Of a stretch of 47,032 nt of DNA, positions 5,863 through 38,051 are shown piece by piece. The notes under the pieces were generated by a model. The model did not search any database. It was not told where the DNA came from and was given only the letters and a program-made list of their open reading frames with translations. The stretch spans positions 1 through 47,032 of the forward strand of contig NZ_LUTP01000027.1 of NCBI RefSeq assembly GCF_002111585.1, given 5' to 3'. Within the stretch, counting starts at the first letter, position 1. Each line of letters starts with the position of its first letter. The stretch is from Lonsdalea iberica. Lineage in GTDB: Bacteria > Pseudomonadota > Gammaproteobacteria > Enterobacterales > Enterobacteriaceae. Both the position numbers and the translations under genes were made by a program.

Positions 5863-5995
5863 GTTAGCTATTCCTGTTTGTTACTGACCAAAGCGAAAAA
5901 TACACGCGATTAGCATGACAAATAAGAAAAAACTTGATGGGTGGAAAAAAGAAGAAAAGAGGTGGCTATTTGATGCATCAGTCAAAGAGAGGGGA

Positions 5996-6024
5996 TTTAC
6001 GGTCGGGAGAAACCCGACCGTAAA
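5996..6024 (-). terminator. 12-bp perfect hairpin after cheZ
   Basis: TTTACGGTCGGG, loop AGAAA, then CCCGACCGTAAA. It sits about 60 nt past the cheZ stop and upstream of flhB. There is no classical U-tract beyond the A/T-rich stem base, so it may act as a weak terminator or an RNA stabiliser. It marks the boundary between the che and flhBAE units. Confidence 0.6.
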
Positions 6025-6082
6025 AATCCACATACCTTTGCCTGATATTCCCCACTCGATACTCGTTGGGGGAGCGGGCGAA

Positions 6083-6730: not shown

Positions 6731-6739
6731 GACATCTCC

Positions 6740-7153
<414 letters not shown>

Positions 7154-7166
7154 TCACTCGGAGCTG

Positions 7167-8219
7167 CTATATACGTAATGCCTGTCCGGCAGAAATTTGA
7201 GCCAGCATTCGCTGACTTACCTGGTGCAAATCCACCACTTCGTCGACACCACCGAGCGCAATAGCCTCTCGAGGCATACCGAAAACTACACAACTGGCTT
7301 CATTTTGCGCCATCGTGTACGCGCCGGCCTGATGCATCTCCAGCATTCCCATCGCGCCATCGTTGCCCATCCCCGTCAGAATGACACCGACTGCGTTACG
7401 GCCTGCGTATTTCGCCACCGAGCGAAACAATACGTCAACCGAAGGGCGATGCCGGTTCACCGGTGCCTCGTCATGTAGCTTGACCTGATAGTTTGCTCCA
7501 CTACGCGAAAGCTCCATGTGACGAGCCCCCGGCGCAATATAGGCATGCCCAGGCAGCACTCGCTCTCCGTCTACCGCTTCCTTCACCGTGATCTGGCAAA
7601 GCTTGTTCAAACGCTCAGCGAAAGATTTGGTGAAGCCTGGGGGCATGTGCTGCGTGATGATGACCGCAGGGCAAGTCGGCGGCAGCGGCTGAAGCACATG
7701 GCGAATCGCCTCTGTACCACCGGTTGACGCGCCGATCGCAATCAGTTTTTCGCTACTCAGCAGCGGTGAGCTAAGCACTTTGACCGGTGCCGCAGCGCTC
7801 TGGGTATGCTGGGGAAGACGCGCTTTGGCGGCGGTACGGATTTTGTCCGCAATGAGTTCGCTGTACGACAGCATCCCTTCACGAATCCCCAACTGAGGTT
7901 TGGTCACAAAATCAATCGCGCCCAGCTCAAGCGCCCGCAGCGTGATTTCCGATCCCTTGCCCGTCAGTGATGACACCATGACGACCGGCATCGGTCTCAG
8001 TCGCATCAACTTCTCAAGAAAATCCAGTCCGTCCATGCGCGGCATTTCGACATCCAACGTCAGAACCTGTGGATTGAATTTTTTGATCAGGTCGCGCGCC
8101 ACCAACGGATCCGGCGCGGTCGCGACCACTTCCATATCGGGATGGCTGTTGATGATCTCAGTCATGATTTGGCGCATGAGCGCGGAGTCATCAACGCACA
8201 ATACTTTTATCTTGCTCAT
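7167..8219 (-). CDS. cheB: CheB, receptor methylesterase/deamidase
   Basis: 350 aa. The N-terminal receiver domain has D10/D11 and phospho-acceptor D56 ([13 protein letters not shown]). A linker (about 130-150) leads to the C-terminal methylesterase with the serine motif [13 protein letters not shown], the H of ITQHMPPGF and the D of [10 protein letters not shown]. CheB removes methyl groups from, and deamidates, receptor glutamyl sites when phosphorylated by CheA. Its ATG overlaps the cheR stop by one base, indicating translational coupling. Confidence 0.97.
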
Positions 8220-9094
8220 TATCTTTCCTTAGCCAGCCCATAAACAGTCTGCCCGCGCAGATAGAATTCCCGACTGATCTGACTGAAATTCTCTGAATGA
8301 CCAGCAAATAGTAATCCGCCGGGTTTAAGCAGCGGGACAAAGCGACGCAGGATGCGTTCCTGCGTTTCTTTGTCGAAATAGATCATGATGTTACGGCAAA
8401 AAATGGCATCAAATGGCGCGGGGACGGACCACTCCGGCGCCAAGAGATTCACCTGCTGAAAATGAACCATTGAGGCCAGCTCGGGACGCACACGAACCAA
8501 GCCGCTATGCGGGCCGGTGCCGCGTAAGAAGAAACGCTGCATCTGCTGTGGCGAGAGCGAGCGTAATTCATCCTGTCGATAGATGCCGGCAGAGGCCTTT
8601 TCCAACACCTGGGTATCGATATCGCTGGCAACCACTTGGCAGCGATTATGTGATTTGTCGCCAAAAACCTCAGCCAACGTCATTGCTAACGAATAAGGCT
8701 CTTCGCCCGTAGAAGCGGCTGTACTCCAGACGGAGTAGTTCCCTTGCCGCTTGCGAGCGTGCTCAGCCAAAATCGGGAAATGATGCGCCTCACGGAAAAA
8801 AGCCGTCAGGTTGGTGGTCAATGCGTTAGTGAACGCTTGCCATTCTGCACTGTTGGGATCCGCCTCCAACAAGGCCAGGTATTGACCGAAATCGTTGATG
8901 CCCAGCAGCCGCAGACGCCGAACCAAGCGGTTATAAACCATTTCACGCTTGTGATCGGCCAGCACGATGCCGGCGCGTTGATAAATCAGCTGGCTGATAC
9001 GTTTAAAGTGCGTATCAGAAAGCGGTAACCGTTCAACCATCTGCGACAAAATTGACGCAGATCCGGAATGATTTGGCGATGTCGTATTTTTCAT
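8219..9094 (-). CDS. cheR: CheR, receptor methyltransferase
   Basis: 291 aa, close to the 286 of E. coli CheR. It has an N-terminal helical domain (residues about 30-90) and a SAM-binding domain ([19 protein letters not shown], near residue 120; [20 protein letters not shown], near 230). CheR methylates receptor glutamates with S-adenosylmethionine for adaptation. It docks through its beta-subdomain on the receptor's C-terminal pentapeptide, which is NWEKF in the receptor encoded here. A 650-nt gap separates it from the receptor gene. Confidence 0.96.
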
Positions 9095-9431
9095 TGTCTA
9101 ACTGCCCGAAAATGGATAGGTTATCTTCTTGTTTTTCAATATGGGCTCATCCCTAACAGCAATTACAGGCATACCATTTATCAGATATCCATCTTCTGCA
9201 GATGTATGGCACAGCCACTGCGCCTTACTGGTAAACATTCAACCATCTGCCTCTAAAACTTAGAGAGCTGCTCATGTTTTTTGTACCAACGCCGAATTAG
9301 CTCAGGTGACTTGTCCATCTTAGTCACTGCGTTTACCCACTTCGATACCTCTGTACTTGCTGCCAGAGGCTACAGCAGCCATGTCCACATATTGTCAACT
9401 ACGGCCATCAATCAAAAACTGCTTTTATAAT

Positions 9432-9455
9432 GCGCTGCCGGTTTTCCGGCAGCGC
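9432..9455 (-). terminator. Hairpin upstream of cheR
   Basis: GCGCTGCCGG, TTTT, CCGGCAGCGC: a perfect 10-bp GC-rich stem. It is followed on the plus strand by TGCCTTTTAGG and on the minus strand by ATTATAAAAGC. It is probably a terminator or transcript-end stabiliser between the receptor and cheR. Confidence 0.5.
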
Positions 9456-9609
9456 TGCCTTTTAGGCTATATGTTTGCTGTGTGAACTACGTCTTTGCCC
9501 AACTCTCAAAGAGCTGTCAGCCAATCTTCCGGCACGACAAGTCCCCTACACTAACTCCATCGGCTGATGCCGGCCTTTCTTTAACTCAATCCGCCTTTTC
9601 AGGGGGTAA

Positions 9610-9671
9610 TAGCCGAAAATATAACCTTTCGGCTAGCAAAAACGATTTTGCCGGCCTCAAACAGAGGCCGG
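9610..9671 (-). terminator. Two hairpins after the receptor gene
   Basis: Two perfect stems in tandem. 9651-9671 is CCGGCCTC/GAGGCCGG with loop AAACA. 9610-9635 is TAGCCGAAA/TTTCGGCTA with an 8-nt loop. They lie 75-140 nt past the receptor stop codon and probably terminate the mcp transcript, although U-tracts are weak. Confidence 0.55.
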
Positions 9672-9745
9672 ACAAACGGTCTTCAGTACAGATTTAAGCG
9701 TAGCGGCAATTCATACTGACCACCCCACTACGCGCTTGAAAGGGA

Positions 9746-11443
9746 TCAGAACTTTTCCCAATTATTACTAGATGCTGCTTCCGCCCCAGCATTTCTTTTG
9801 CCAGTAGATTTTCCCACTGTCGGACTCAGCAGCGCCGTTTTACCGGCCGCAGGAGCAATGGCAGGACGGAAAGAATTCCTTTCCTCCGGCAAATGGAACA
9901 GCGACACCGAATGGTTCAACCCACGAACCTGTTCTTCCAGCGCGACCGCGGCAGAGGCTGACTCTTCCACCAACGCGGCGTTCTGCTGAGTCACCCGGTC
10001 CATTTCCGTCACCGCCTGACCAACCTGATCGATCCCTTTGCTCTGCTCATCGGATGCGGAAGCGATTTCGCCCATGATATCGGTCACTCGCGTAACCGCG
10101 CCGACAATCTCGCCCATGGTTTCACCCGCCGTCTCGACCAATTTTGAACCTTCGTCTACACGTCCGACAGAGTCGTCAATCAGGGTTTTGATCTCTTTTG
10201 CCGCTTGGGCGCTGCGCTGCGCCAGGTTACGAACTTCACCCGCGACTACGGCAAAACCACGACCCTGTTCGCCGGCACGCGCCGCTTCAACGGCGGCATT
10301 CAGCGCAAGGATGTTGGTCTGGAATGCAATACCGTCTATCACACTGGTGATATCAGAGATTTTCTGTGAGCTGCCGGCGATATCGTGCATCGTTTTCACC
10401 ACGTTATCGACAACCTGACCGCCCTTCTGCGCCGTTTCGGAAGCGCTCAGCGCCAGTTGGCTAGCCTGCCGCGCATTTTCGGCGTTCTGTTTCACCGTCG
10501 CGGTCAGCTGTTCCATGCTCGCCGCCGTTTCCTCAAGGGAAGCGGCTTGCTGCTCGGTGCGGGAAGACAGATCGTTGTTGCCGGCGCTGATTTCCGTTGA
10601 GCCGGTATAAATGGCTTCCGCCCCCCGTCGTACGGCACTCACCGTGGTGATGAATTCACTCTGCATATGACGAAGGCTGTCAGCCAGAATACCCATTTCA
10701 TTGGTACCCTGGAACTCAAGGCGATGAGTCAGATCGCCTTTCGCCATATAACGGATATTTTCGACAATCCTGTTCAGCGGTTGGATAAGCGCGCGGTTGA
10801 CACCCAGCCAAACTAGGCCGGACATCAGCAGTACGAAGACCACGATCGAGCCAAGAACCCACAGTGCAGACTTATAAGCCGACTCGTTCTCTTCTATGGC
10901 GTCTTTGTAAATGACGTCATAAGAGTCACGGTAAGTCATGTAGGTTTTTTCAAACGTGTTCTGATAACTCTGCGTTGGCTGATCGAGGAACGCCTGCAGC
11001 TTGCCTGTTGTAATAAACACAACCAGTTCGCCTAAGGCGCCATTTAACGTATTAAAATCGGTTTTGACCGCCGCTTGAATAGCTTTGTTTTGTTTTGGCG
11101 AATACGGGATGTTTTCATATTTGCCGAAACGGTCGTTAGCCATCTGCAGCTGTTTTTTTGCTAATTCAATGAGCTCGTTCGCAACAGAGTTGTCCGTAGA
11201 TTGGGTGCTCTGATTCAGCGCCAAATACGATCCGGCCCTATTCAGGGTATTACGAGCCTGCAGCAGGTAGGTCCAGGTTGCGTCCAACTCCGATCTTTGT
11301 TCATTGAGAATGCGCGTATCGCGAAAAATATCACGGTCCGTTTTCAACGCATTGAAAAACAGGCCACCAGAGACGAATTGAAGAGCACTGAATAATGCCA
11401 AGATAAGAACTAAACTGGTTACCACTTTGATACGATTGAGCAT
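9746..11443 (-). CDS. Methyl-accepting chemotaxis receptor, Tsr/Tar type
   Basis: 565 aa from the ATG at 11443 ([11 protein letters not shown] aligns with E. coli Tsr MLKRIKIVTSL; GGAAAAG lies 8 nt upstream). A start five codons earlier is possible. Layout: TM1 (about 8-28), a periplasmic four-helix sensor (about 30-190) with the conserved amino-acid-binding segment [12 protein letters not shown] (R and N ligands of Tsr/Tar), TM2 (about 192-213), HAMP, then the signalling hairpin with [20 protein letters not shown]. The C-terminus is NNWEKF, a variant of the NWETF CheR/CheB tether. It probably senses an amino acid such as serine or aspartate; the ligand cannot be fixed from sequence. It lies between cheW and cheR, the tar/tap position. 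Confidence 0.93.
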
Positions 11444-11537
11444 GTGAATCTTTTCCATAGTTCCATGACCCTATCCTTGGTAAGAGAACATTACCTGGAC
11501 AGGTTTCCGTATAAAGAGAAATTCATTACATATGACT

Positions 11538-11559
11538 CGGGCCATACTTTGATGGCCCG
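11538..11559 (-). terminator. Hairpin between cheW and the receptor gene
   Basis: CGGGCCAT, loop ACTTTG, ATGGCCCG: a perfect 8-bp stem 20 nt after the cheW stop. There is no U-tract, so it may attenuate rather than end the mot-che transcript before the receptor gene. Confidence 0.45.
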
Positions 11560-11578
11560 CCGTTATGTGTTGTGTGAA

Positions 11579-12085
11579 TCAACCTTTCAGAACGCTATCA
11601 ACCAGCGCCATTTCTTCGCTGCTTAACAGTTTTTCGATATCCACCAAAATCAGCATCCGTTCGCCCAAGGAACCCAGGCCGGTGAGATATTCCGTTGAAA
11701 GCGTCACCGCAAACTCCGGAGCAGGACGGATTTGATCCGCCTTCAAAGAAAGCACATCAGATACACCGTCAACGACGATACCCACGACGCGCTGTCCAAG
11801 ATTCAGCACGATGACGACCGTATTGTCATCGTAGTCAACTTCTTGCTGTGCAAATTTGATGCGTAAGTCAACGATCGGAACAATAACGCCGCGCAGGTTG
11901 GTTACACCTTTAATAAAGGAAGGGGTATTGGCAATGCGAGTCACCTGATCGTAACCCCGAATTTCCTGCACCTTCAGAATATCGACGCCGTATTCTTCGT
12001 CGCCAAGCGTAAAGATCAGGAATTCCTGCCCTACGGTTTCACCTGCCAGTTTTGTGACGTTTGCAAGTCCAGTCATGTTACTCAC
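11579..12085 (-). CDS. cheW: CheW, coupling protein
   Basis: 168 aa, one SH3-like CheW domain. It shows the conserved [20 protein letters not shown] near residue 20, followed by the [13 protein letters not shown] strand. CheW links receptor tips to CheA in the signalling array. The gene follows cheA after 27 nt, within the motAB-cheAW unit. Confidence 0.97.
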
Positions 12086-12112
12086 CTTATTATCATTAGC
12101 CGTTATTTTTTG

Positions 12113-14137
12113 TTAAGCGGTCTCTACCACACGCTTTTCACGATAAAGCGCCTGCAATGCCGACACATCAACAATCAGCGCAACACTACCATCGCCTAGA
12201 ATCGTTGCGCCTGAAACGCCCGGCACCTTGCGGTAGTTGCTTTCCAGGTTCTTCACTACCACCTGATGCTGACCAATCAGTTGATCAACCAGCAATGCGT
12301 AACGACGTCCCGCACTTTGCAGAATGACGACAATGCCCTGGGTTGCATCCGTCTTCGCATTTTCTACATCAAATACCTGATAAAGCTCGATCAGAGGCAG
12401 ATATTCGCCACGAACTTGCAATACTCTCTCGCCGCCAGCCAGCGGGTAGAGATCTTCAGATTGAGGCTGAAGAGATTCCATGACCGCATTCAGTGGCAGA
12501 ATGAAGACTTCGCCGTTAACCTTGACGGACATGCCATCCAGAATCGCCAGAGTTAATGGCAGCAGGATACGGATCGTGGTCCCCTTCTCTTTTTGGAAGT
12601 AGATTTCCACGTGACCGCCCATCTCCTGGATATTACGTTTAACCACATCCATACCCACGCCGCGGCCAGAAACATCAGTGACTTTTTCCGCCGTGGAGAA
12701 ACCGGGTGCGAAGATCAGCATCCCGACTTCCTCATCCGTCATGCTGTCGCTAACGGAGAGTCCCTGTGAGAGGGCTTTGGCGAGAATACGTTCACGGTTC
12801 AGCCCGGCGCCATCATCGATAACTTCGATGCAAATGTTCCCGCCCTGATGTTCAGCAGACAGAGTCAGGTTACCCACCGCTGTTTTACCCGCGGCGACAC
12901 GATCCTCTGGGTGCTCAATACCGTGGTCTAGGCTGTTACGCACCAGGTGAGTCAGCGGGTCAATAATGCGTTCGATTAGACTTTTATCGAGTTCCGTAGA
13001 GCTGCCTTGCAACGTCAATTCAACTTCTTTGCCGAGCTTGGCGGCTAAATCGCGCACCAGACGCGGGAAGCGGCTGAAGACGTATTCCATCGGCATCATA
13101 CGAATGGACATGACGGATTCTTGCAGATCACGCGCGTTGCGCTCGAGTTGCCCCATGCTGTTCAGCAAGTCGCCGTGAACCACAGGGTCCAGCGCGCTGG
13201 AACGTTGAGCCAGCATAGATTGCGTGATCACCAGTTCACCAACCAGGTTGATAAGCTGATCGACTTTTTCGACCGCGACGCGAATGCTGGTATCGCCGGT
13301 TTTCGGTCGTGCCTTGGCCGCTTCCGCCGGTTTGGTCACTGGCGCGGCAGGTTTAGCCGGCGCGGCCTCAGCCGGAGCTGGCGCAGGTTCCGGAGCTTCA
13401 GGCTTGGCTGCCTCTTGCGGCGGCGCCGCAGGAGCAGCAGGCTCCGCGCCAGAGGTTTTGAAGTTGATCTGTTCGGGTTCCAGTACGAAACACAGCACCG
13501 CAGTGATGTCGTCCTGGCTTTCAGTCGTCACCAGCGTGGCTTCCACGCTGTTTGCCGTCTGGTGCAAATCTTTTACCGTTCCCAAATTGGCCAGTTCTTC
13601 CAGCAGCTGCGGGATTTCCTGCTCTTTTAGGTTGGTTAACGCAATATGAAGTTCATTATGGCCCGCGGGCGTCGATGGCGCTGCCGACGCAGTGGAAGCA
13701 CTTTCGTTGGTCGCAGCAGCAGACGCGGCTCCGCCCTCAGCCTCTTTAGACTCGAGCGCAAGCTGACGAAGGGCCTTGCAGATGTACTCGAAGCTTTCGG
13801 CGTTCGGTTCCTGCGCGGTTTTATAAGCGTCCAACTGATCCTGCATAATGTCTTTTGTTTCCAGAAACAGGTTGATAATGTCAGTGCTCAGCCGCATTTC
13901 GCCGCGTCTGGCACCATCTAACAGGTTCTCCAGTAAATGCGTGGTTTCCTGTAATACCTTGAAACCAAACGTCCCGGCGCCCCCTTTAATCGAGTGAGCC
14001 GCTCGGAAGATCGCATTCATCTGTTCGGTATCTGGGCTTGACGGGTCGAGCAGCAATAAATGCTGTTCCATATCCGCCAACAATTCGTCTGCTTCATCAA
14101 AGAACGTTTGATAGAAAGCACTCATGTCCATGCTCAC
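12113..14137 (-). CDS. cheA: CheA, chemotaxis histidine kinase
   Basis: 674 aa from the GTG at 14137. An upstream GTG at 14146 is in frame, but AGAGGTG six bases before 14137 and the E. coli start (GTG, MSMDISDFYQ) decide it, and this numbering puts the phospho-histidine at H48 (RAAHSIKGGAGTFG). Domains: Hpt (1-130), CheY/CheB-binding P2 (about 160-235), a long Ala/Pro linker (about 240-285), dimerisation helices, an HATPase domain with N box (LVRNSLDHGIE) and G boxes (DDGAGLN, GRGVGMDV), and the CheW-like P5. It is about 20 residues longer than E. coli CheA because of the APAPAEAAPAKPAAP linker. Start and motB stop overlap nearby. Confidence 0.97.
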   Translation of the reverse strand: MSMDMSAFYQTFFDEADELLADMEQHLLLLDPSSPDTEQMNAIFRAAHSIKGGAGTFGFKVLQETTHLLENLLDGARRGEMRLSTDIINLFLETKDIMQDQLDAYKTAQEPNAESFEYICKALRQLALESKEAEGGAASAAATNESASTASAAPSTPAGHNELHIALTNLKEQEIPQLLEELANLGTVKDLHQTANSVEATLVTTESQDDITAVLCFVLEPEQINFKTSGAEPAAPAAPPQEAAKPEAPEPAPAPAEAAPAKPAAPVTKPAEAAKARPKTGDTSIRVAVEKVDQLINLVGELVITQSMLAQRSSALDPVVHGDLLNSMGQLERNARDLQESVMSIRMMPMEYVFSRFPRLVRDLAAKLGKEVELTLQGSSTELDKSLIERIIDPLTHLVRNSLDHGIEHPEDRVAAGKTAVGNLTLSAEHQGGNICIEVIDDGAGLNRERILAKALSQGLSVSDSMTDEEVGMLIFAPGFSTAEKVTDVSGRGVGMDVVKRNIQEMGGHVEIYFQKEKGTTIRILLPLTLAILDGMSVKVNGEVFILPLNAVMESLQPQSEDLYPLAGGERVLQVRGEYLPLIELYQVFDVENAKTDATQGIVVILQSAGRRYALLVDQLIGQHQVVVKNLESNYRKVPGVSGATILGDGSVALIVDVSALQALYREKRVVETA

Positions 14138-14142
14138 GTGGG

Positions 14143-15288
14143 TCACCTCTGCTGTGAATCGTGGCTTGTTGAAGAAGGCGTCGCCTGGCTATCAGGAGAA
14201 GCGGGCAAAGCGGTAGTCGGCTGTGTGCGACCAGCAGCAGATGCGCTATTCGTCTCAATGACGGAAACGGACCCCGGCGTTCCAGCCGAGCCTTGTGCCG
14301 GTGCCGGTGCCGGTGCCGGTGCCGGTATTTTATTTACGACCCCAGGCGAAGCGCCGCTGCTACTGTTATTGTCGGCAGGTGTCGGGGTAGGTTTAGCGTT
14401 ATCAGAGTTGATATTTTGTAAATTCTCAGCCTTATCAATATCAACCGCATTGCTTTCCGCGTTTTCACGCTCAATGCTCTCTTGAGTCTGCTTGTTCAGC
14501 ACGACCAGGCTGATTCGCCGGTTTATCGCATCATCGCCGCCCTGGGCCTGCTTAAGCCCCATAGTGGCGGCCATACCGACGACGCGCAGTACCTTGCCCT
14601 CTGACAAGCCGCCGGCGATGAGTTCCCGTCGGGATGCATTAGCGCGGTCCGCAGACAATTCCCAGTTGCTGTAACGCCGTTCGCCGGTCACATAAGGCGC
14701 ATCGTCTGTGTGACCAGATAGGCTGATTTTGTTGGGGATATCATTCAGGATCGGCGCAATGGCGCGTAGAATATCGCTCATATACGGCTCCACCTGAGCG
14801 CTGCCGCGCTTGAACATTGGCCTTTTCTGGCTATCAATGATCTGAATTCTCAGACCTTCTTCGACCATCTCAATCAGCAAATGCGGACGCAATGCACGAA
14901 GTCGCGGGTCGGCCTCAATCAGTTGATCGAGCTTGTCCCGCAGTTTGTTTAATTTGGCTTCTTCACGTTGACGTTGGTCTTTGGAAACATCTATCTGCTT
15001 CCTGACTTCACCGTCTTGCTGAGTTGGATCTTGTCCACCGCCGGGGATAGGGCTGGACGCGTCGCTGATGCGCGCCCCATCGGTCATCGCGACCTTTAGC
15101 GGGGTGCGAAAATATTCCGCAATCTGCGCCAGCTGGGAAGGAGATGAAATGGCGATAAGCCACATCACCAGGAACAGCGCCATCATGGCGGTCATGAAGT
15201 CGGCATAAGCAATCTTCCAAGCCCCGCCGTGGTGGCCTCCATGACCCGATTTACGCTTTTTACGAATAATGGGGTGCTGATGTTTCAT
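14143..15288 (-). CDS. motB: MotB, stator protein with long C-terminal tail
   Basis: 381 aa, about 70 longer than E. coli MotB (308). One TM helix carries the essential proton-binding aspartate at residue 30 ([20 protein letters not shown]). The OmpA-like peptidoglycan-binding domain is at about 155-275 ([20 protein letters not shown] and the [15 protein letters not shown] helix). After it comes a low-complexity tail rich in Asn, Pro, Ala and Ser, including an (AP)n stretch made by a hexanucleotide repeat. MotB anchors the MotA4B2-type proton channel to the wall and drives rotation. Its ATG overlaps the motA stop (ATGA). Confidence 0.96.
14295..14324. repeat. Hexanucleotide tandem repeat (GTGCCG)x5 inside motB
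   Basis: Five perfect copies of GTGCCG (CGGCAC on the coding strand), coding an Ala-Pro stretch in the MotB C-terminal tail. Copy-number change would keep the reading frame and only change the tail length. Confidence 0.9.
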
Positions 15289-21466: not shown

Positions 21467-21635
21467 AAGGTTAGATACTCCAGACTTGGATCCGATCAGG
21501 CCAACTGCCCTATAAGAAATATGGCATAATTCCAGGGTTCCTAGGCTGGTTTATCCTGCAACATATGAAGCAGTTCGGGTATAAACCATTCATCACCGTT
21601 ATGGAAATGAACTACCCCATCAAGGGAACACTATG
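21464..21635 (+). pseudogene. Fossil 3' end of a second DUF3289-like toxin gene
   Basis: Conceptual translation gives LRLDTPDLDP (compare FGLDIPDIGPDP in the intact gene). After a frameshift it gives FLGWFILQHMKQFGYKPFIT and then VMEMNYPIKGTL (compare FRSWFILQHLNKFGYKPFIT and VVEMDYPIKGNI). Its stop overlaps the copy-2 ATG exactly as in the intact pair. Only the last ~55 codons remain, so this is an orphaned toxin tail left beside its partner gene. Confidence 0.85.
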
Positions 21636-22325
21636 AATCTCACCTTTGCTTTTCTTGTTGTTAACTACCTACTCCTAGTCGTGGGACGACTTTATCAATT
21701 CGATGAAGACTCCTTTTTGTACATGCATTATTCCACGATGCTGCCATTGATATTGATCCTGAGTCCTGTATGCACGCTTATCTTTATACGCCGTCGATTT
21801 GCTCATAAATGGCGTTATGCGGGATGGAATATATTTCTATATGCTTTTACGTTGCTGTGGATTAATTATATTGGCCCGGCATCAGCCTATTTATCTTTTT
21901 CTGCGCCGACGATTAGACTTACTGGAAATAATATTCATTACGTGACAAATAACCCACCAAAAAGCCAGCAAGCACTTATTGATTTAATTATGAGTCACTT
22001 CAAACAACACCCTTTTAATAAAAACAGTGATGAATACTCTGTTATTTTTTATGTGAAAAGTGTCGATTCTCCACTGAGTGGCAAGAGGCCGTTAGCTCAC
22101 TGGTGGGATCAATCCATGTTAACCGAATATCAGAGATATCAAGATACCGTAAACTATGAATTAGCCTCTATGGCATTCCTCAATAAAAAAAATGATGACT
22201 ATTTCAATGGTCTCACACGGTTTTGGCTCTATAACGACTATGCACATGCCTGTAATGGTCATCAGTCAGAAGTTAATATTATTGATATAAAATCAAATGG
22301 CATCCAAGACCCTACCTGTGATTAA
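21633..22325 (+). CDS. Predicted immunity-like membrane protein, copy 2
   Basis: 230 aa paralogue of the 20505 protein: three N-terminal TM helices (FAFLVVNYLLLVVGRLYQF, then about 33-53 and 60-82), the motif NPPKSQQALIDLIMSHFKQH, then LAHWWDQS and a terminal DPTCD with an upstream partner cysteine (HACNGHQ). The ATG overlaps the stop of the fossil toxin tail (ATGA) with GGGAA ahead. It is followed after 12 nt by copy 3. It appears intact even though its partner toxin is degraded, as seen for orphan immunity genes. Confidence 0.7.
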   Translation: MNLTFAFLVVNYLLLVVGRLYQFDEDSFLYMHYSTMLPLILILSPVCTLIFIRRRFAHKWRYAGWNIFLYAFTLLWINYIGPASAYLSFSAPTIRLTGNNIHYVTNNPPKSQQALIDLIMSHFKQHPFNKNSDEYSVIFYVKSVDSPLSGKRPLAHWWDQSMLTEYQRYQDTVNYELASMAFLNKKNDDYFNGLTRFWLYNDYAHACNGHQSEVNIIDIKSNGIQDPTCD

Positions 22326-22337
22326 CCCTAACACGCT

Positions 22338-23021
22338 ATGAAACTCACTTTTATTTTTCTAGTAATTAATTATCTATTGCTAATTATCGGCCGTTTATAT
22401 CAGTTCGACAACAGCACATTCCTGTGGACGTATTACTCCACCATGTTGCCGCTGATCTGGCTTATTGCCCCAATATGCATCATTGTATTTCTGTGCCGTC
22501 GCTTCCGGCAGAAATGGATTTACATTGGCAGCACGCTGGCGCTTCATGTCGTTATGACGGTATGGGTTAATTATATTGGGGACATTTCCACGAAGTTTAC
22601 CTTTGGGACAGAGGCCATCTATCTAGGTCAGGATGAACGCTTTGTCGTCGCCAATCCACCTCAAGGGCAGCAGGCTTTGATTGACTTGATAATGAAGTAT
22701 TTTGAACAACATCCCTTTGATAAAAAAGAAGATCGATACTATGCCAGTTTTTATCGACGTAGCGTGGATACACCGATAAGCGGTGAAATTCCGTTAACGC
22801 ATTGGTGGGATCAGTCGCCCACAGGCCCCGACGAGCATTACCTAGACATTACCGATTATCGGATCAGTAGCTTCGCTTCTTTTCATAATGTTAATATCGA
22901 GCGGCTGCGCGGTATTATGCGTTTTTGGTTTAGCAACTCTTATAATCTCACATGTGAGAAAAATCAGAACTCTATTGTAGATATCACCCCCAATGGTAAC
23001 CAAGACCCCACCTGCGATTAA
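22338..23021 (+). CDS. Predicted immunity-like membrane protein, copy 3
   Basis: 227 aa, closest to copy 2 (FIFLVINYLLLIIGRLYQFD, NPPQGQQALIDLIMKYFEQH, LTHWWDQS, terminal DPTCD with partner cysteine in LTCEKNQN). It shares the same three-TM plus periplasmic-domain plan. It is separated from copy 2 by 12 nt without a toxin fragment, so it may have arisen by tandem duplication or lost its toxin completely. It is followed 2 nt later by repeat copy B. No clear ribosome site precedes its ATG, so it may depend on reinitiation from copy 2. Confidence 0.7.
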   Translation: MKLTFIFLVINYLLLIIGRLYQFDNSTFLWTYYSTMLPLIWLIAPICIIVFLCRRFRQKWIYIGSTLALHVVMTVWVNYIGDISTKFTFGTEAIYLGQDERFVVANPPQGQQALIDLIMKYFEQHPFDKKEDRYYASFYRRSVDTPISGEIPLTHWWDQSPTGPDEHYLDITDYRISSFASFHNVNIERLRGIMRFWFSNSYNLTCEKNQNSIVDITPNGNQDPTCD

Positions 23022-25479: not shown

Positions 25480-26709
25480 ATGAAAACTCAATTGAAGAAT
25501 AAATCGGCAGAGGCTTGCCCTTTATCTCAACAAGAGGAGAATCAGCGCACGCTTTCCCGGAGAAAATTCCTTCTGTATGGAAGCTGCGTCGCCGGAACGG
25601 TCGCGCTGGCTGGCACCGCTCATAAGACGATGGCAAAAGAAGCCGCATCCACCACCGCCGCTACGGCGAAATGTCCTCCTGGGGTGATAGCCTCCTCCTG
25701 TGTCGCCGCTGACCCGACATTGGCTCCCGGCGCGAACCCCGCAGCGCCCAAAACCGTCACCATCACTCCCCGCGCTGCTGAAAATGTCGTGACCGAGTAC
25801 CCTTTCAACGGCGGACTGTTGTTCGGCGTCATGGTCAGTCGTCTGCACGAATTCGATACCACAGGCCTTTTCGCTCATCAGGACAACACCGACGTCATTC
25901 TTACCAATCTGGGCACTCAGCCAGTCTTGGTAGCCGCGACGTCGCACGTCAGCAGCGATCTGCACAATGATACTCCGCTGCGTCACGCCGTCCCCTCGCT
26001 GCAGAGCATCATTATCCGAGCCGGCGCAGTGATTACGACCGCTGACGCCTCCGCAAACGGCGTAATCTCGCTGATTCAGGTCCGCAATACGCGCAATGTC
26101 GAATCGGACGTCTTTTCACGTGATACCCAGTGGGCCAAATACGCTTTCCCGGCGGGAACCCCTGCGCTTCCGCTGTGGATCTCCAATCAGCTTCATCTGA
26201 ACCACAAGATTCAAGTGAATCCGTGGCAGTTGACCGGTTTGCCAGCGCCTGCCGGCAGCAAAGTCCTGCCTTACGAGCTGTACGTCAATCTGTGGTGGTT
26301 GCCGGCCGGCTCTGATGCCGGAATCCACGCCGCTCATGGCAGCAACTTGTTCGAGGTCCATACTCAGTTAATTGGCTGTGGCCGTATGCAAAAGTTCACC
26401 GACATCGACAAAGCCCGCGCCGCCATAGCAGGCAAACGCCCCGTACTCCCGGAAGGCGGCGTTGCATCGCCGTTTGACACAGGCAAAGCCTTCCCTGAAC
26501 TCTATGAAGAATTTAGACTCGCGCCGGGAAACACGCATCTGCCGATGCCGATCGTCACTGAATATGACGCCTGGAAAGGCGTGTCGGACATTGCCAAGAA
26601 TGCCAGCATGGACGATCCCTGCTTCTTCTACCCACCTCATCAATATTACGCCGATACCGATAGCGTTTGGATTGCCTTTGAATTTCACCGTTCAGCAGAC
26701 CAGCACTAA
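25480..26709 (+). CDS. Tat-exported cupin protein linked to the glucan lyase
   Basis: 409 aa from the ATG at 25480 (AGAGGT just upstream; a frame ten codons longer lacks support). Residues 26-33 (SRRKFLLY) followed by a hydrophobic stretch (32-47) form a twin-arginine signal, so the folded protein is exported. Residues 283-300 fit cupin motif 1 (H283, H286, E292, G299), and LAPGNTH (347-353) fits motif 2, giving a likely metal site. The family is otherwise unknown to me. It lies 24 nt before a GH31 alpha-1,4-glucan lyase homologue, certainly co-transcribed. Fungal enzymes acting on 1,5-anhydrofructose (aldos-2-ulose dehydratase) also contain cupin domains, so a dehydratase or tautomerase for lyase products is my hypothesis, not a homology claim. 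Confidence 0.6.
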   Translation: MKTQLKNKSAEACPLSQQEENQRTLSRRKFLLYGSCVAGTVALAGTAHKTMAKEAASTTAATAKCPPGVIASSCVAADPTLAPGANPAAPKTVTITPRAAENVVTEYPFNGGLLFGVMVSRLHEFDTTGLFAHQDNTDVILTNLGTQPVLVAATSHVSSDLHNDTPLRHAVPSLQSIIIRAGAVITTADASANGVISLIQVRNTRNVESDVFSRDTQWAKYAFPAGTPALPLWISNQLHLNHKIQVNPWQLTGLPAPAGSKVLPYELYVNLWWLPAGSDAGIHAAHGSNLFEVHTQLIGCGRMQKFTDIDKARAAIAGKRPVLPEGGVASPFDTGKAFPELYEEFRLAPGNTHLPMPIVTEYDAWKGVSDIAKNASMDDPCFFYPPHQYYADTDSVWIAFEFHRSADQH

Positions 26710-26733
26710 TCGAATATCAAGGACAGCGTAATA

Positions 26734-29700
26734 ATGAAAAACAGAGAACTTCCCGCGTCGTGGCGTGCTTATAACACCTATGACTATGTCCCTGTGGACG
26801 ATTGGTCCGTCGGCGACGATATTGAACTTTATTCGGTTTACTGGGACGGAAAACCCCACTCTCCCAACGGTTTTGACACGGACTGGACGATATATATCAA
26901 TGCCAAAGCCAAACCGAAATCTCGCTCGGCAACCGCTGAGCGGGACGTTTATCTCGTGCTGCAGGTCACATCCTGTGAGAAAGATGCCTTCCGGGTTCGG
27001 TTTGCGCCTGCCGCCGCCAGCATCAACGACTACCCGGAAAAAGTGTATGGGCCCATCGTAGTAGAACGCCTTGAACAAATACGCCGATATGAACAGGCCG
27101 CCGGCTTCCATCCTCTCCTGCGCTGGAATCGGGATGGCGTCAGCATTCAGTTACGGTCTATTCAGATCCAGTTTTTACGGGACAAAGACGATTTACTGTC
27201 GATCCAAATCAAGCGGCTGTCAGACGGTGCGGTCACGGATATCTCATCCGGCCCGCTATGCCACGCCAAACCTGGCGTCGGCACCGTCGCGAATATGAAG
27301 CGCAAAGCCGAGTCGGCAACGCACTACTTTGGTCTTGGCGAAATCGTGAATTACAACCTGACCGGGAAAAGCAATGCGACCGTCGGGCACGCTATCGAAC
27401 AGTGCTATAGCTACAGCGGCTATTCCCTGTTGGATCATACCGGCTCGCAGGTGACCTGCTACAACTATGACAACCTGTGGTACAACCAGCCGGAAGTCTT
27501 CCCGGTCAAAGCGAAGTATAAGGATTCGTTCAAGGCCAATGCCAACATTCCGCTATACCTGAACGCCCCCTTCTATATTGAACGCGCCGTCGTGGAAGGT
27601 CAGCAACAGTTTCTCGGCGTGTTTCTCGATAATACCGGACAGAGCTATTTCTCCCTGAAACATCCCTCTCGCGACGCCAATGCCGTTGAGGCCGGAGTTC
27701 AACACGGCGAGTTCGACTGCCACTACATGTTCGCGGAGCAAGGTTCAGGCGTCATGGATGCCTTCACATTCCTGATGGGCAAAGGCAATCTGGATGCGCC
27801 GAGTCAGAAAGAGATCACGTTGAACGATCGCGCGGTGATGCCGCCCAAGTACATCTTTGGTTATTTCCAGGCCAAATACGGCAGCCCCGGCCTGCTACGC
27901 CCCGATGATGTCAACGATCCAATCAAGGTTTACGTTGAAGATATCGTCAAGGGACACCAAAAAGCGGGTATTCCGATCGAAGGTTTGGGGATCGACATCG
28001 ACATACAGGAAGACAAAAAAGTCTTCACCATCAAAGACAGCTTCTGGACGAAAGGTAAGGTAGACGAAGGGATCTCGGTATTCGATTGGGCAGCCCAGTT
28101 CAATCTGCAGTGCCAAACCAACATCACGCCGTTTATCCGCGCGGACAAGGTCGCCTATAACCCTGCGGACACCTCGAAGAAGCAGTATGCCACCGCTCAG
28201 GGGCTGATCGAAAAGGGCTATTGCGTCGCCAATGAAGGTGAGTCCAACATACCCAAATTCCGCGGTCCTAAGCATGAGAGCGACTATCCGGGCCTGACGT
28301 TCACTCGCATTGGGGAGACTAACTACCCCGATCAAAACCTGCTGGTGCTGGATTACGGCATCAACGCGCAAACCGCCGAGCGCGACATGATTGGCGCGGT
28401 GGTCACCGACTATGGCAATCCGGATGCGGCGCGCTTTTGGGGCGAGCAGTATACCTATCTGCTGAAAAACGGGCTGGGATTCGTCTGGCAGGACATGCCC
28501 GCACCGGACTCCATGCCTCACGTCGAAGACGGTAAAAATTTCGCGGATACGGAAGCGCCGCGTAACCAATTCGGTTGGTCGCTCACCGGCGAGTCGCCCA
28601 GCGACGACAGAAGGAGAACCAACACCTTTAACTGGCGCAGCTATCACGGTCAGCTCCATTTGACCGATCCCCGCTTCGGCGACGGTCGTAAAACGCCTTA
28701 TGTCGAACTTCGCAATTTCCATGCGTATATGCTGGCAAAATCCAGCTACGAGCATGGACTCAGCGCGCATGAAGATCTGCTTAAGGGTTACAAACGCAGC
28801 TATATCATCTGCCGCAGCGGCTATCCCGGTTTGCAACACTACGCCGGTCACTGGGTGGGCGATAACGCCTCGACCTGGCATCATCTGCAGGCGACGCTGC
28901 CCATGGTTCTCAATCTGGGGATGTCCGGCCTGCCGATTTCCGGTTCGGACGTTGGGGGGTTCGCGCCGGGCGAGGCGCCGGAAGATCCCGCCAGCGTCTT
29001 CTACGGCGACCAACACTGTCGCAACCATAACCCCATGGTTTATGACCGGCTGGTGCTGGGACCCGACGACATCGACATCGGCGACGTCTGCGAACACGAG
29101 CTGATGACTCGCTGGACTCAGGCTGCGTGCCTGTTGCCTTGGATGCGCAACCATTACGATGCGATGAAACCCTATCAGGAAATTTATCGTTTTAGCGAAA
29201 AGGCACCGGTCAGCGGTACCCGCACATTCGCCGATATCATGTCGGCCTTTGTCTGTTTCCGCGTGCGCTGGCATCACCTGCTGTATGACGCCATGTTTCA
29301 AAACACTCAGACCGGTATTCCGATCTTACAGGCAATGTGTTTATGGCAAGGCGACGACGGGATCTTCGATAAACGCAACAAAGACGTACTGGCGACGCAG
29401 TGCTTTATCGACGGCTCCGTGCTTTATGCGCCAATCATGACGCGCAGCACTGCCGGTAGCGGAGCGGCCTACTTGGCTGAAAAAGAAGTCTACTTCCCTA
29501 ATGCGGTCAAAGGACAGGCCCTGAACTGGTATCGTTACCATGTCATCGAAGACACGGTGGATATCGCGAACCCCATCAAAGGGGGACAGCGCCTTACCGT
29601 CAGTGCCGATATCACCAGCATGCCGCTGTTTATTCGAGAAGGGGCTATCATTCCTGAGCGACATACGCAGTCCGATCTGCAGGCGCCGTTCAAAAATATT

Positions 29701-30132
29701 CAGGTAATGGATAAGTTCGAGCAGCCGCTGGTGTTGGCGCTATATCCGCTTGGGGAGTCCGACGAAGGCCATCATCAGCTCTACTGGGATGATGGCGGTG
29801 TGACCCGTTCGGCAGAACGCCAAGGGCAGTTCTCGGTGATCGACGTTCGCCAACGTCGAATCGAAGGATCGCTGGAGGTTAGCCTGACACCGCGCAAGTA
29901 CGATTACCCGCTGTACGCGTTTGTCTACCTGCGCCTTCGCACTGACAAACCTGCGTTGCAACGGCTGACGGTCGGCTCGTCTACCCTCAGCACGCGGGTA
30001 GATTCGACGGATGCCCTCTTCAATCATGAAGGAGAGGCAGCTTATGTCGATCCTCGCGGCAGTGTCTGGATTAAAGTCAGCACCCGCACGCTATCCGCAG
30101 CCCACGCGTTGACGATGAATATCGTGTCATAA
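26734..30132 (+). CDS. GH31 alpha-1,4-glucan lyase homologue
   Basis: 1132 aa, far longer than bacterial alpha-glucosidases and near the ~1,040-1,090 aa of algal/fungal alpha-1,4-glucan lyases. From memory of the Gracilariopsis enzyme the match runs end to end: NTYDYV at the start, NYDNLWYNQ, VMPPKYIFGYFQ, IEGLGIDIDIQ (418-425), CQTNITPF, LGFVWQDM with the nucleophile D587, FHAYMLAKS, HYAGHWVGDNAST, GSDVGGF with the acid/base D739, and ACLLPWMRNHYD. Ordinary GH31 hydrolases have WxDMNE at the nucleophile; here it is WQDMPAP. Lyases cleave terminal glucose from glycogen, starch or maltodextrin as 1,5-anhydro-D-fructose. There is no signal peptide, so it is predicted cytosolic. Confidence 0.85.
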   Translation: MKNRELPASWRAYNTYDYVPVDDWSVGDDIELYSVYWDGKPHSPNGFDTDWTIYINAKAKPKSRSATAERDVYLVLQVTSCEKDAFRVRFAPAAASINDYPEKVYGPIVVERLEQIRRYEQAAGFHPLLRWNRDGVSIQLRSIQIQFLRDKDDLLSIQIKRLSDGAVTDISSGPLCHAKPGVGTVANMKRKAESATHYFGLGEIVNYNLTGKSNATVGHAIEQCYSYSGYSLLDHTGSQVTCYNYDNLWYNQPEVFPVKAKYKDSFKANANIPLYLNAPFYIERAVVEGQQQFLGVFLDNTGQSYFSLKHPSRDANAVEAGVQHGEFDCHYMFAEQGSGVMDAFTFLMGKGNLDAPSQKEITLNDRAVMPPKYIFGYFQAKYGSPGLLRPDDVNDPIKVYVEDIVKGHQKAGIPIEGLGIDIDIQEDKKVFTIKDSFWTKGKVDEGISVFDWAAQFNLQCQTNITPFIRADKVAYNPADTSKKQYATAQGLIEKGYCVANEGESNIPKFRGPKHESDYPGLTFTRIGETNYPDQNLLVLDYGINAQTAERDMIGAVVTDYGNPDAARFWGEQYTYLLKNGLGFVWQDMPAPDSMPHVEDGKNFADTEAPRNQFGWSLTGESPSDDRRRTNTFNWRSYHGQLHLTDPRFGDGRKTPYVELRNFHAYMLAKSSYEHGLSAHEDLLKGYKRSYIICRSGYPGLQHYAGHWVGDNASTWHHLQATLPMVLNLGMSGLPISGSDVGGFAPGEAPEDPASVFYGDQHCRNHNPMVYDRLVLGPDDIDIGDVCEHELMTRWTQAACLLPWMRNHYDAMKPYQEIYRFSEKAPVSGTRTFADIMSAFVCFRVRWHHLLYDAMFQNTQTGIPILQAMCLWQGDDGIFDKRNKDVLATQCFIDGSVLYAPIMTRSTAGSGAAYLAEKEVYFPNAVKGQALNWYRYHVIEDTVDIANPIKGGQRLTVSADITSMPLFIREGAIIPERHTQSDLQAPFKNIQVMDKFEQPLVLALYPLGESDEGHHQLYWDDGGVTRSAERQGQFSVIDVRQRRIEGSLEVSLTPRKYDYPLYAFVYLRLRTDKPALQRLTVGSSTLSTRVDSTDALFNHEGEAAYVDPRGSVWIKVSTRTLSAAHALTMNIVS

Positions 30133-30147
30133 CGCATCGGGTCTTGT

Positions 30148-30174
30148 AACGGGCAGGCCTCTCGCCTGTCCGTT
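30148..30174 (+). terminator. Terminator of the cupin-lyase operon
   Basis: AACGGGCAGGC, loop CTCTC, GCCTGTCCGTT (one G-T wobble), followed by ATTTCTCTCTCC. It lies 16 nt after the lyase stop. Confidence 0.75.
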
Positions 30175-30337
30175 ATTTCTCTCTCCTTTCCTACCTCCGC
30201 TCAACCTCTTCTCACGCTTCTGCTCTGTATAGCACGGCCACGCCACGTGTCATCACATCGTGCCGTTATTACGAACGATCAGGAAAGAGAAAACAGGAGA
30301 GGTGTGGAACGAAGAGGGACTAGCGGCAATAGATAAA

Positions 30338-30415: not shown

Positions 30416-32347
30416 TTAAGCCAGGCACATACCGGCGTCGAAACCTTCACGCGCAGCCACCAGCGCATTGCTGGTTTTGACGGCGCCGCCGATGACGATC
30501 GCATCGTCCACAACCCCTTGCAGCTCTTCAGCCAGTTCTTTTACCGGCGCATATCCCAGTGCGATAACGACCGTATCCGCTTCCAACTCCATGCGTCCTT
30601 GCGCATTTTCGAGAATCACCTGATGCTCGCCAATTTCGCATAGCTTGGTGTTGGGGTACTGCTTCACGTCGTACTCTTCCAGCACGGACATCAGATGCAG
30701 CTTGCTGACGCCATCCAGTTCTTGCAACAGGCGGTCGCGCATTTCAACCACGGTCACCTCTTTCTGCTGCATGGCCAGATGTGCCGCAGTTTCGCCACCC
30801 ACTTCACCACCGCCCGCGATAACAACACGCTGGCCGGTGACCACGTTGCCCAGCAGGACATCCTCCGCCAGCACCACGTGCGGCTGGTTGATACCCTTGA
30901 TCGGCGGAACCGCAGGTTTACCCCCCGTCGCGACGATGACGGAGTCCGGACGCGCTTCCGCAACGATCGCTTTGGTCAGCGGCGTATTCAGTTTGATCTC
31001 CACACCTAGCTTTTCCAGTTCCCGTCCCAGCCAGGCGGTGTAGGTCGCCAGCTCGCCTTTACCCGGAGGGTAAGCCGCAGAGCGGAACTGACCACCCAGA
31101 TAGCCGGTTTTTTCAAATAGCGTTACTTTGTGGCCGCGCGTCGCCGCCACGCGAGCCGCTTCCAGTCCCGCCGGTCCCGCCCCCGCGATGAACACGCGTT
31201 TAGGGCTGGCGACTTTGCTGTAATCCAAACTGTTTTCACGCGCCAGCGACGGGTTGACCAGACAGGTAAATGGCACGCCAAGCGGCAGACTGGCGAGGCA
31301 GCCCTGCATACAGCCGATGCAATAACGGATAGACGCTACATCGCCCGCTTTTGCTTTGTTAGGCAGATGCGGATCGGCCAGTGAACCACGCCCCATCGCG
31401 ATGAAGTCTGCTTTGCCCAGCGCCAGAACGTTGTCCGCCATACGCGGATCGTTGATGCGGTTCACGGTGATGATGGGCATATTCACCGTTTTCTTCAGCT
31501 CTTCGGAGAAGGAGACAGCCCAAGCATGGCCCACGTACATGGGCGGAACGGTACACGCTTTGTTGCGATCGCCATACACGCCCATGGTCATATGCAGCGC
31601 ATCCACGCCCCACTCCTCGAAGATCTGCGCCAGCACGCGCGTCTCGGAGATATCGCGACCGCCGAGGAAACCTTCGTCAGCGGAGAGTCGGATGGTGACC
31701 GGGTAGTCCATCCCGACTTCTTTACGCACCGCCTGATAGATCTCTTTTAAGAACAGAATTCGACCATCCAGGTTGCCGCCATATTTGTCAGTACGTTTAT
31801 TGGCGTAAGGCGATAAAAATTCGGCAATCAAATAACCGTGGCCGGCATGAATTTCAACTCCATCGAATCCCGCCTCTTTCACCCGACGCGCGCAGTCGGC
31901 GAATTCCGAGACCAACTGCTGTATTTCGTCAATACCCAGCTCACGGGGCATTTCTTTCAACGCTGGACACGGGATTGCGGAAGGCGCCACCGGCTGCACA
32001 CCGCCGTTGACATGTTCTGACGTCTGGCGGCCTGCGTGATAAATCTGGCAGAAGATTTTGCTATCGTATTTATGGATAGTGTCGGTGAGTTTACGGTGGC
32101 TGGCGATTTGATCGTCGCGCCATAACCCACCAATGTATTTACAGCCCATCGCATTTTCGTTGATGGCATAGTTCTCGGTGATGATCAGCCCCCAGCCGCC
32201 TTTTGCTTTTTCTTCGTGATAGGCGATATAACGGTCTGACGCTGTACCATCGCTATTACACAGGTTGGTGACCATCGCGGGGACAACCAACCGGTTAGGT
32301 ATAACGCACTGGTTAATCTTTTCGGGTTGAAATAATTTCTTGAACAT
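30416..32347 (-). CDS. NADH:flavin oxidoreductase (OYE/2,4-dienoyl-CoA reductase type) with 4Fe-4S cluster
   Basis: 643 aa. The N-terminal TIM barrel of the old yellow enzyme family (1-340) carries HAGHGYLIAEFLSPYANKRT with the active-site region. A CIGCMQGC...C cluster (about 342-362) binds 4Fe-4S. The C-terminal half has FAD (VFIAGAGPAGLEAARVAATR) and NAD(P) (VVIAGGGEVGGETAAHLA) Rossmann motifs. This is the architecture of FadH, enoate reductases and BaiCD-type enzymes, which reduce activated C=C bonds of enoyl-CoAs or enones. The genomic FadH is normally elsewhere, and the divergent sequence plus the location in the accessory block argue for another substrate. It is monocistronic, convergent with the lyase, with its own terminator. 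Confidence 0.85.
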   Translation of the reverse strand: MFKKLFQPEKINQCVIPNRLVVPAMVTNLCNSDGTASDRYIAYHEEKAKGGWGLIITENYAINENAMGCKYIGGLWRDDQIASHRKLTDTIHKYDSKIFCQIYHAGRQTSEHVNGGVQPVAPSAIPCPALKEMPRELGIDEIQQLVSEFADCARRVKEAGFDGVEIHAGHGYLIAEFLSPYANKRTDKYGGNLDGRILFLKEIYQAVRKEVGMDYPVTIRLSADEGFLGGRDISETRVLAQIFEEWGVDALHMTMGVYGDRNKACTVPPMYVGHAWAVSFSEELKKTVNMPIITVNRINDPRMADNVLALGKADFIAMGRGSLADPHLPNKAKAGDVASIRYCIGCMQGCLASLPLGVPFTCLVNPSLARENSLDYSKVASPKRVFIAGAGPAGLEAARVAATRGHKVTLFEKTGYLGGQFRSAAYPPGKGELATYTAWLGRELEKLGVEIKLNTPLTKAIVAEARPDSVIVATGGKPAVPPIKGINQPHVVLAEDVLLGNVVTGQRVVIAGGGEVGGETAAHLAMQQKEVTVVEMRDRLLQELDGVSKLHLMSVLEEYDVKQYPNTKLCEIGEHQVILENAQGRMELEADTVVIALGYAPVKELAEELQGVVDDAIVIGGAVKTSNALVAAREGFDAGMCLA

Positions 32348-36920: not shown

Positions 36921-38051
36921 ATGTCTACTCCACATGTAGATTCGTTAAGAAAAACCCGAACATCGCTCGAAAAGACTTGTGACAAAGCGATTGGACTACC
37001 ATCCGCAAGCTATAGAGAGGAAGATTATTTCAATCTAGAAAAGCAGGCCATCTTTAATAAACGATGGCTTTCTATTGGATTCGCTAGTGATGTCCCGAAT
37101 ACTGGAGATGTATGGCCTATAGAAATCCTCGGAAAAAATTTATTTATAATACGTGACGGCAATAAAGTCCGGGTATTCCACAATTTTTGCCCACACCGCG
37201 GAACATTGTTAGTTAGGGGAAAAGAAAAAGATATCAAACAATTCATTTGTCCCTATCATTCATGGTCGTTTGACTTAAACGGGCGCTTAATCAGCGCAAC
37301 CCATAATAAAGACTGTAATAAAACAGACTTTCACTTAAATGAGGTAAGGTCAGCGATTTGGAATGATGTGATATTTATTAATTTTTCAGCAGATGCTCCC
37401 AACCTGAATAAGGCTATCGAACCACTGAACCAGCGTTGGAAATATTTTGATTTCAGTCAGCTTCATCCCGGAGGTGAAATGACTTATGATTTCCCAGCGA
37501 ACTGGAAACTCATTACTGAAAATTTCCTGGAGAGCTATCACGTTCCTTCGGTTCATCCCAGGTTAGCCACCTACTCTAAGTTTAGTAACAGATATCCCAT
37601 TTTTTTTAATCAGGAATTTTTAGGTCAGGGAAGTCGGGTTTATAAACCTGAGGTCACTGAATACGAGTTACCTCGTTGGCCGGGAGTCTCCGGTGAACTT
37701 GAATTCCAAGCTGAATATATTGCGATATTTCCTAACACGCTCGTTGGCCGCATGCCAGACCACGTTTTCATCTGGACGGTTACACCGCTTTCCGCACAGC
37801 GAACCATTGAACGTCTGAAATTTTACTTCATCGGTAACGATGCAACGCATAGCCGGTTCGCAAAAGATCGAGAAGCCACGTTAAAAAGATGGAAAGAAGT
37901 CAATGATGAAGACTGTGAGATTGTTTCTCTAATCCACGCGGGAAACAGCTCTGAAGCTTTTTCAGGAGCGCGTTTCGTCCCCGAACATGAAAAAACCATT
38001 TATTTATTCCAGAATCTGGTTCTAAAAGAAATATTAGACTGCGTTGAATAA
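36921..38051 (+). CDS. Rieske non-heme iron oxygenase, alpha subunit
   Basis: 376 aa. The Rieske 2Fe-2S motif is C90-x-H92-x17-C110-x2-H113 (CPHRGT, CPYHSWSF). The catalytic domain has NWKLITENFLESYHVPSVHP with iron ligands H207 and H212, and a later acidic stretch (VNDEDCE) likely supplying the aspartate. The family includes aromatic ring dioxygenases and N- or O-demethylating monooxygenases such as carnitine and glycine-betaine oxygenases; the size and motifs fit the latter group best. No ferredoxin reductase gene is adjacent, so electrons must come from elsewhere. It is coupled to tetR and followed by a methyltransferase 44 nt on. The low-GC codons suggest transfer. Confidence 0.85.
   Translation: MSTPHVDSLRKTRTSLEKTCDKAIGLPSASYREEDYFNLEKQAIFNKRWLSIGFASDVPNTGDVWPIEILGKNLFIIRDGNKVRVFHNFCPHRGTLLVRGKEKDIKQFICPYHSWSFDLNGRLISATHNKDCNKTDFHLNEVRSAIWNDVIFINFSADAPNLNKAIEPLNQRWKYFDFSQLHPGGEMTYDFPANWKLITENFLESYHVPSVHPRLATYSKFSNRYPIFFNQEFLGQGSRVYKPEVTEYELPRWPGVSGELEFQAEYIAIFPNTLVGRMPDHVFIWTVTPLSAQRTIERLKFYFIGNDATHSRFAKDREATLKRWKEVNDEDCEIVSLIHAGNSSEAFSGARFVPEHEKTIYLFQNLVLKEILDCVE

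Follow-up and report, generated by a model that had tools for sequence, protein, structure and literature searches.

The window analysed here is a stretch of 47,032 nt from Lonsdalea iberica (contig NZ_LUTP01000027.1). It carries two adjacent genes, the first for a cupin with a twin-arginine translocation (Tat) motif and the second for a protein of glycoside hydrolase family 31 (GH31). We read this pair as a two-gene bacterial form of the anhydrofructose pathway, with a probability of roughly 0.62 for its two parts jointly, namely that the GH31 protein is an alpha-1,4-glucan lyase and that the cupin acts on its product. Taken separately, the lyase identity is highly probable from sequence comparison, and we favour, with clearly less confidence, action of the cupin on the sugar made by the lyase or on the dehydrated form of this sugar. 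The features of the locus are as follows.

25480-26709, + strand: Tat-motif bicupin gene, 409 aa, ATG start, open reading frame confirmed
26710-26733, + strand: intergenic gap of 24 nt between the cupin gene (first) and the GH31 gene (second)
26734-30132, + strand: GH31 gene of the alpha-1,4-glucan lyase clade (by PDB match, tree and residues), 1132 aa, ATG start
30146-30176, + strand: hairpin, possible terminator of the pair, 13 pairs (7 G-C), 3' of the GH31 stop

Both reading frames lie where the original prediction of a two-gene operon had placed them, with the sizes and the gap it had given. The frame of the cupin gene is likewise open from an alternative TTG start at 25450. Judged by eye, ribosome-binding-like sequences precede both ATG codons (AGAGGT for the cupin gene, AAGGA for the GH31 gene). 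A shared terminator had also been claimed. A hairpin does follow the second stop codon, and it is plausible that it is the terminator common to both genes, but its T tail is weak and the whole scan gave nine terminator-like sites against 7.3 (standard deviation 2.8) in shuffled sequences, which is not above chance. Records of L. quercina and L. britannica contain the GH31 protein at 92-96% identity.

All lyase motifs that had been quoted for the GH31 protein were present. Its best match in the PDB was the algal alpha-1,4-glucan lyase 2x2h (E 2.1e-132), followed by maltase-glucoamylase (E 6.8e-20). The alignment to 2x2h spans residues 13-745 and 785-1119 of the GH31 protein. For the comparison of residues, 41 rows were aligned, 31 on the lyase side (counting 2x2h) and 10 of hydrolases, and lyase residue numbers were counted from the PDB-search alignment with an offset of 11. 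N463 of the window protein aligns with lyase N459, and D587 aligns with the nucleophile D553. According to PMC12441222, D553 serves both as the nucleophile and as the apparent base, with help from N459, and glycosidases have an isoleucine at the position of N459. In our alignment, asparagine was found at this position in all 31 lyase-side rows and also in 5 of the 10 hydrolase rows (the others: four isoleucine, one serine), so N459 alone was dropped as a lyase marker. A glutamate three residues after the nucleophile, a criterion derived in this analysis, was present in 10 of 10 hydrolase rows and in 0 of 31 lyase-side rows. The nucleophile is followed by P-A in the window protein and P0016, by P-D in P0028 and by T-V in 2x2h. 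D710 sits at what we take to be the acid/base position. A DNA-level search of E. coli genomes with the GH31 gene returned no match.

In an unrooted maximum-likelihood tree, in which several rows are long or oddly composed (2x2h among them) and 2x2h is represented only by the residues aligned in the PDB search, a clade of 29 rows (100/100) holds 2x2h together with the 19-row clade of the window protein (100/100), apart from the hydrolases (100/99). Within the 29 rows, 2x2h groups with the divergent proteins of G868 and G846 (100/99). Support is weak (83/68) for the branch that joins P0033-P0035 to the window clade. The phylogeny proposed as a check thus places the protein with a characterised lyase and apart from hydrolytic GH31 enzymes. 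Together with the PDB ranking and the loss of the hydrolase glutamate, it argues for the predicted lyase rather than an alpha-glucosidase.

The gene pair is conserved, which had been named as a further check. A GH31 gene was adjacent in all 11 distinct loci with a long Tat-motif cupin (five Lonsdalea genomes, Brenneria sp. 4F2, G115, two Rhizobium plasmids, G868 and G846). Among 346 rhizobial-family genomes, with the cupin and lyase searches taken as covering one genome set, cupin matches (E ≤ 1e-6) were found in 11 and were near-full-length in 2, and lyase matches (E ≤ 1e-40) were found in exactly these 2. Of 72,556 plasmid records, 2 matched the GH31 protein over at least 80% of its length, and these 2 also covered at least 80% of the cupin. 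The identities of lyase and cupin were correlated (Mantel r 0.90, 0/9999 permutations) over 14 pairs, of which 5 had partners joined by inference and some rows are near-copies. The cupin was found in 5 of 295 genomes of Lonsdalea's own family. This rare, patchy occurrence of the pair is consistent with lateral transfer, and both Rhizobium plasmids were typed as conjugative.

Some of these loci showed peculiarities. The GH31 gene of Rhizobium anhuiense (L025:10001-13406) is annotated with 1018 aa, has more similarity beyond this in another frame and seems to be frame-broken near its 3' end. G846 carries a second cupin copy. Beside the cupin, G868 (L061:10057-11037) and G846 (L062:8138-9100) encode putatively exported proteins of ~320 aa, which are 52-57% identical over their shared part and have no Pfam match.

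At residue 26 the cupin reads SRRKF. Of 15 family proteins, 14 share an [ST]RR motif, and the exception, P0006, starts downstream of it. TatC is present in all five Lonsdalea genomes, and the cupin is predicted to be exported through Tat. Residues H283, H286, E292, H294 and H387 are invariant in the family and are candidate metal ligands.

Two template-free structure models of the cupin, both of low confidence, predict a bicupin fold like that of aldos-2-ulose dehydratase/isomerase (AUDH, PDB 4a7k). The top 50 Foldseek matches did not include AUDH; its bicupin part came first only in a second look, at ranks 1-3 for both models after VIA-align alignment of 999 chains, and in one of the two model comparisons a single-cupin chain was <1 Z unit from AUDH. 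The match covers cupin residues 91-404 and residues 442-733 of the AUDH chain, whose bicupin part is 442-734, with 16-18% identity in the structural alignments. The comparison with AUDH suggested in the original prediction therefore returned the bicupin part of this enzyme as the top match of the models. The Pfam family AUDH_Cupin scored 12.3 bits on the cupin (cut-off 25). It matched 14 of 15 family members at E ≤ 10 (best 2.1e-4), and the two G846 cupins gave no match at E ≤ 0.5. No credible relative emerged when PDB sequences were searched with the cupin, a relative or family profiles. The cupin alignment yielded no further members in a third round of protein searching, and no cupin relative was found in viral contigs.

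The cupin had been proposed to be a dehydratase or tautomerase. Its relation to the cupin part of AUDH is backed by the models and by the gene next to a distant relative in Streptomyces. A dehydratase role for the cupin on its own is doubtful: besides its cupins, AUDH has a propeller, in which its dehydration site has been placed, and a search of low weight found no propeller in Lonsdalea. AUDH_beta_propeller had no match within the 409-aa protein. In the five Lonsdalea genomes the propeller was not found either, a weak negative, as the positive control also gave no match. Genome searches with AUDH_Cupin and the propeller gave no matches anywhere, controls included, and are hence no proof of absence. 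As the propeller is missing, we do not file the cupin as AUDH, only as related to the cupin portion of that enzyme. On two Streptomyces plasmids (L028:5983-8100 and L041:7138-9254), a distant cupin relative adjoins a separate, clear AUDH propeller gene, and this gene pair looks like a split AUDH. A Persicobacter plasmid (L040:2426-11944) carries a GMC oxidoreductase, a ferritin-like protein, an AUDH propeller, a glycogen debranching enzyme and a GH63-like enzyme; no cupin relative was found at this cluster.

In the proposed mechanism, the GH31 lyase would convert alpha-1,4-glucan or maltodextrin to 1,5-anhydrofructose. D587 would form the glucosyl-enzyme intermediate and, assisted by N463, would then take a proton, which would give the enol and from it 1,5-anhydrofructose. 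The cupin would fold with its metal in the cytoplasm, be exported through Tat and meet its ketosugar substrate in the periplasm. It would most likely be the isomerase-type half of an AUDH, kept as its own gene, and from 1,5-anhydrofructose it would make an enolone sugar by isomerisation or dehydration. The end product would be either an antimicrobial of the microthecin/ascopyrone type or a catabolic intermediate.

The alternative that survives best is about purpose and is compatible with the pathway reading. The pair would be catabolic: 1,5-anhydrofructose would be isomerised or dehydrated and passed to an aldolase/dehydrogenase route for carbon, with no antimicrobial meant. We rate this somewhat below even odds. 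At four of four rhizobial loci examined with their flanks, a DUF993-type protein, a short-chain dehydrogenase/reductase (SDR) and a xylose-isomerase-like TIM barrel are encoded no more than ~9 kb away from the pair; at the fourth locus, the SDR is visible only as a cut annotation at the edge of the stretch. An acyl-CoA-dehydrogenase-type flavoprotein was found at three of the four loci (the fourth stretch stops before that point), and the electron-transfer flavoprotein (ETF) and ETF-QO were found in both Rhizobium plasmids. These calls come from Pfam on the G846 copies and, at the other loci, from tblastn matches to the G846 copies or from annotations. In the rhizobial family, 34 of 101 genomes have DUF993, so that, on an informal view, its presence near all four pairs is unlikely to be background. 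The module suggests a catabolic route, and PMC12441222 reports that a Sinorhizobium was isolated with 1,5-anhydrofructose as its only source of carbon. On the other hand, DUF993 had no match in Lonsdalea, where the positive control gave none either, the module was not seen in the examined flanks of Brenneria sp. 4F2 and G115, and export of the cupin fits a role outside the cell. DUF993 was mentioned in none of the open-licence papers searched. The rhizobial neighbourhoods point to catabolism at least as much as to an antimicrobial product.

It is less likely, and in our view doubtful, that the lyase makes 1,5-anhydrofructose while the exported cupin acts elsewhere (e.g. on an outside 2-keto sugar) or only binds, with regulation as the only link between the genes. 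Two observations bring this into play and weigh against the pathway reading. The first is that the predicted compartments differ. An unsignalled lyase beside an exported cupin had been recognised as a difficulty from the start, and our comparison of sequences indicates that it is real. The lyase N-termini (P0016-P0038) have no signal visible by eye, the Lonsdalea protein likewise, and the same split recurs in a second lineage that is only ~30% identical, with a reservation for G868, whose GH31 start is ambiguous (a hydrophobic stretch precedes the conserved part in the longest frame). The second is that short cupin relatives without the Tat motif lie in sugar-oxidation neighbourhoods without a lyase. 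Nine such short-cupin loci were examined among 26 other plasmid records (two of the nine are near-identical, from Streptomyces); none of the nine had a lyase, five had a GMC and five a Gfo/Idh/MocA oxidoreductase. Moreover, AUDH also accepts glucosone. Against a separate role for the cupin stand the lyase neighbour in 11 of 11 long-cupin loci across the two divergent lineages, the exact co-occurrence of both genes in the rhizobial-family genomes and the correlated distances.

For the pathway reading, the split leaves two routes: the 1,5-anhydrofructose would pass through the membrane, or the lyase would be co-exported with the cupin by Tat. In the latter case, the cupin would bind the lyase, which has no signal of its own, while still in the cytoplasm and would carry the folded complex through the Tat pore, giving a two-enzyme factory for outside starch or maltodextrin. 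We consider this a long shot. If true, it would explain the signal-less lyase, the use of Tat by the cupin and the gene linkage, and also why a glucan lyase is kept in a genus without matches to GlgA and phosphorylase.

Degradation of the cell's own glycogen by the pair was set aside. Neither glycogen synthase GlgA (PF08323) nor glycogen/maltodextrin phosphorylase (PF00343) had a match in any of the five Lonsdalea genomes (G000-G004), and for both the control was positive in 12 of 14 genomes. As these matches are absent, the substrate is probably not self-made glycogen; it is probably plant-derived or imported.

It is very improbable that the GH31 protein is a drifted ordinary alpha-glucosidase or transglucosidase making little or no 1,5-anhydrofructose: the GH31 fold, P-A after the nucleophile and the N459 equivalent in half of the hydrolase rows would fit, but the PDB ranking, the clade with a characterised lyase and the hydrolase glutamate lost in 31 of 31 rows do not.

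A BaiCD/OYE-like flavoenzyme gene (window 30416-32347, - strand; best NCBIfam match below cut-off) converges on the pair. It also adjoins the pair in the other four Lonsdalea genomes, in Brenneria sp. 4F2 and (by eye) in G115, and the enzyme could be an enone reductase acting on the enolone product. Brenneria sp. 4F2 has a GH13 alpha-amylase-family gene (L024:6194-7936, - strand) upstream of its pair. Elsewhere in the window there are flagellar and chemotaxis genes (2625-15288, - strand: FlhA, FlhB, CheB, MCP, CheA and MotB), two tandem paralogous putative membrane proteins of 230 and 227 aa without a Pfam match at E ≤ 0.01 (21633-23021, + strand) and a Rieske-type oxygenase-like gene (36921-38051, + strand), whose best match, below cut-off, is the oxygenase subunit of glycine betaine monooxygenase.

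The review PMC12441222 gives fungi and red algae as sources of alpha-1,4-glucan lyase. Excerpts of the open-licence literature contained no report of a tested bacterial enzyme; those on bacteria name it merely among the activities of the GH31 family, and one from a single-cell genome study mentions genes for 1,5-anhydrofructose degradation. A co-inherited bacterial lyase and AUDH-cupin relative would be a compact, expressible system for rare anhydro sugars and a possible source of 1,5-anhydrofructose in plant-associated bacteria. The pair also offers a test of the origin of AUDH by the joining of cupin and propeller proteins.

The closest known relative of the first enzyme is the GH31 alpha-1,4-glucan lyase of Gracilariopsis lemaneiformis (EC 4.2.2.13, 2x2h). 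The Lonsdalea protein matches it over most of its length, has the nucleophile aspartate and the lyase asparagine, lacks the hydrolase glutamate and falls into the same clade. It differs in being bacterial, in being paired with a Tat-motif cupin, in having P-A rather than T-V and in its host genus, which gave no GlgA or phosphorylase match. The cupin resembles AUDH (a chain of 900 residues) in its predicted bicupin fold, and its AUDH_Cupin signal is weak. In contrast to AUDH, it stands alone, carries a Tat motif, is without the propeller and shares only the low structural-alignment identity given above; in Streptomyces, two separate genes side by side encode the cupin relative and the propeller. 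The fungal anhydrofructose pathway comprises the lyase, anhydrofructose dehydratase and ascopyrone tautomerase. The bacterial form shares the family of the first enzyme, and its second enzyme has a predicted AUDH-related fold. It differs in having two genes, with no separate dehydratase or tautomerase recognised, and in rhizobia the nearby module of DUF993, SDR, TIM barrel and flavoprotein is added.
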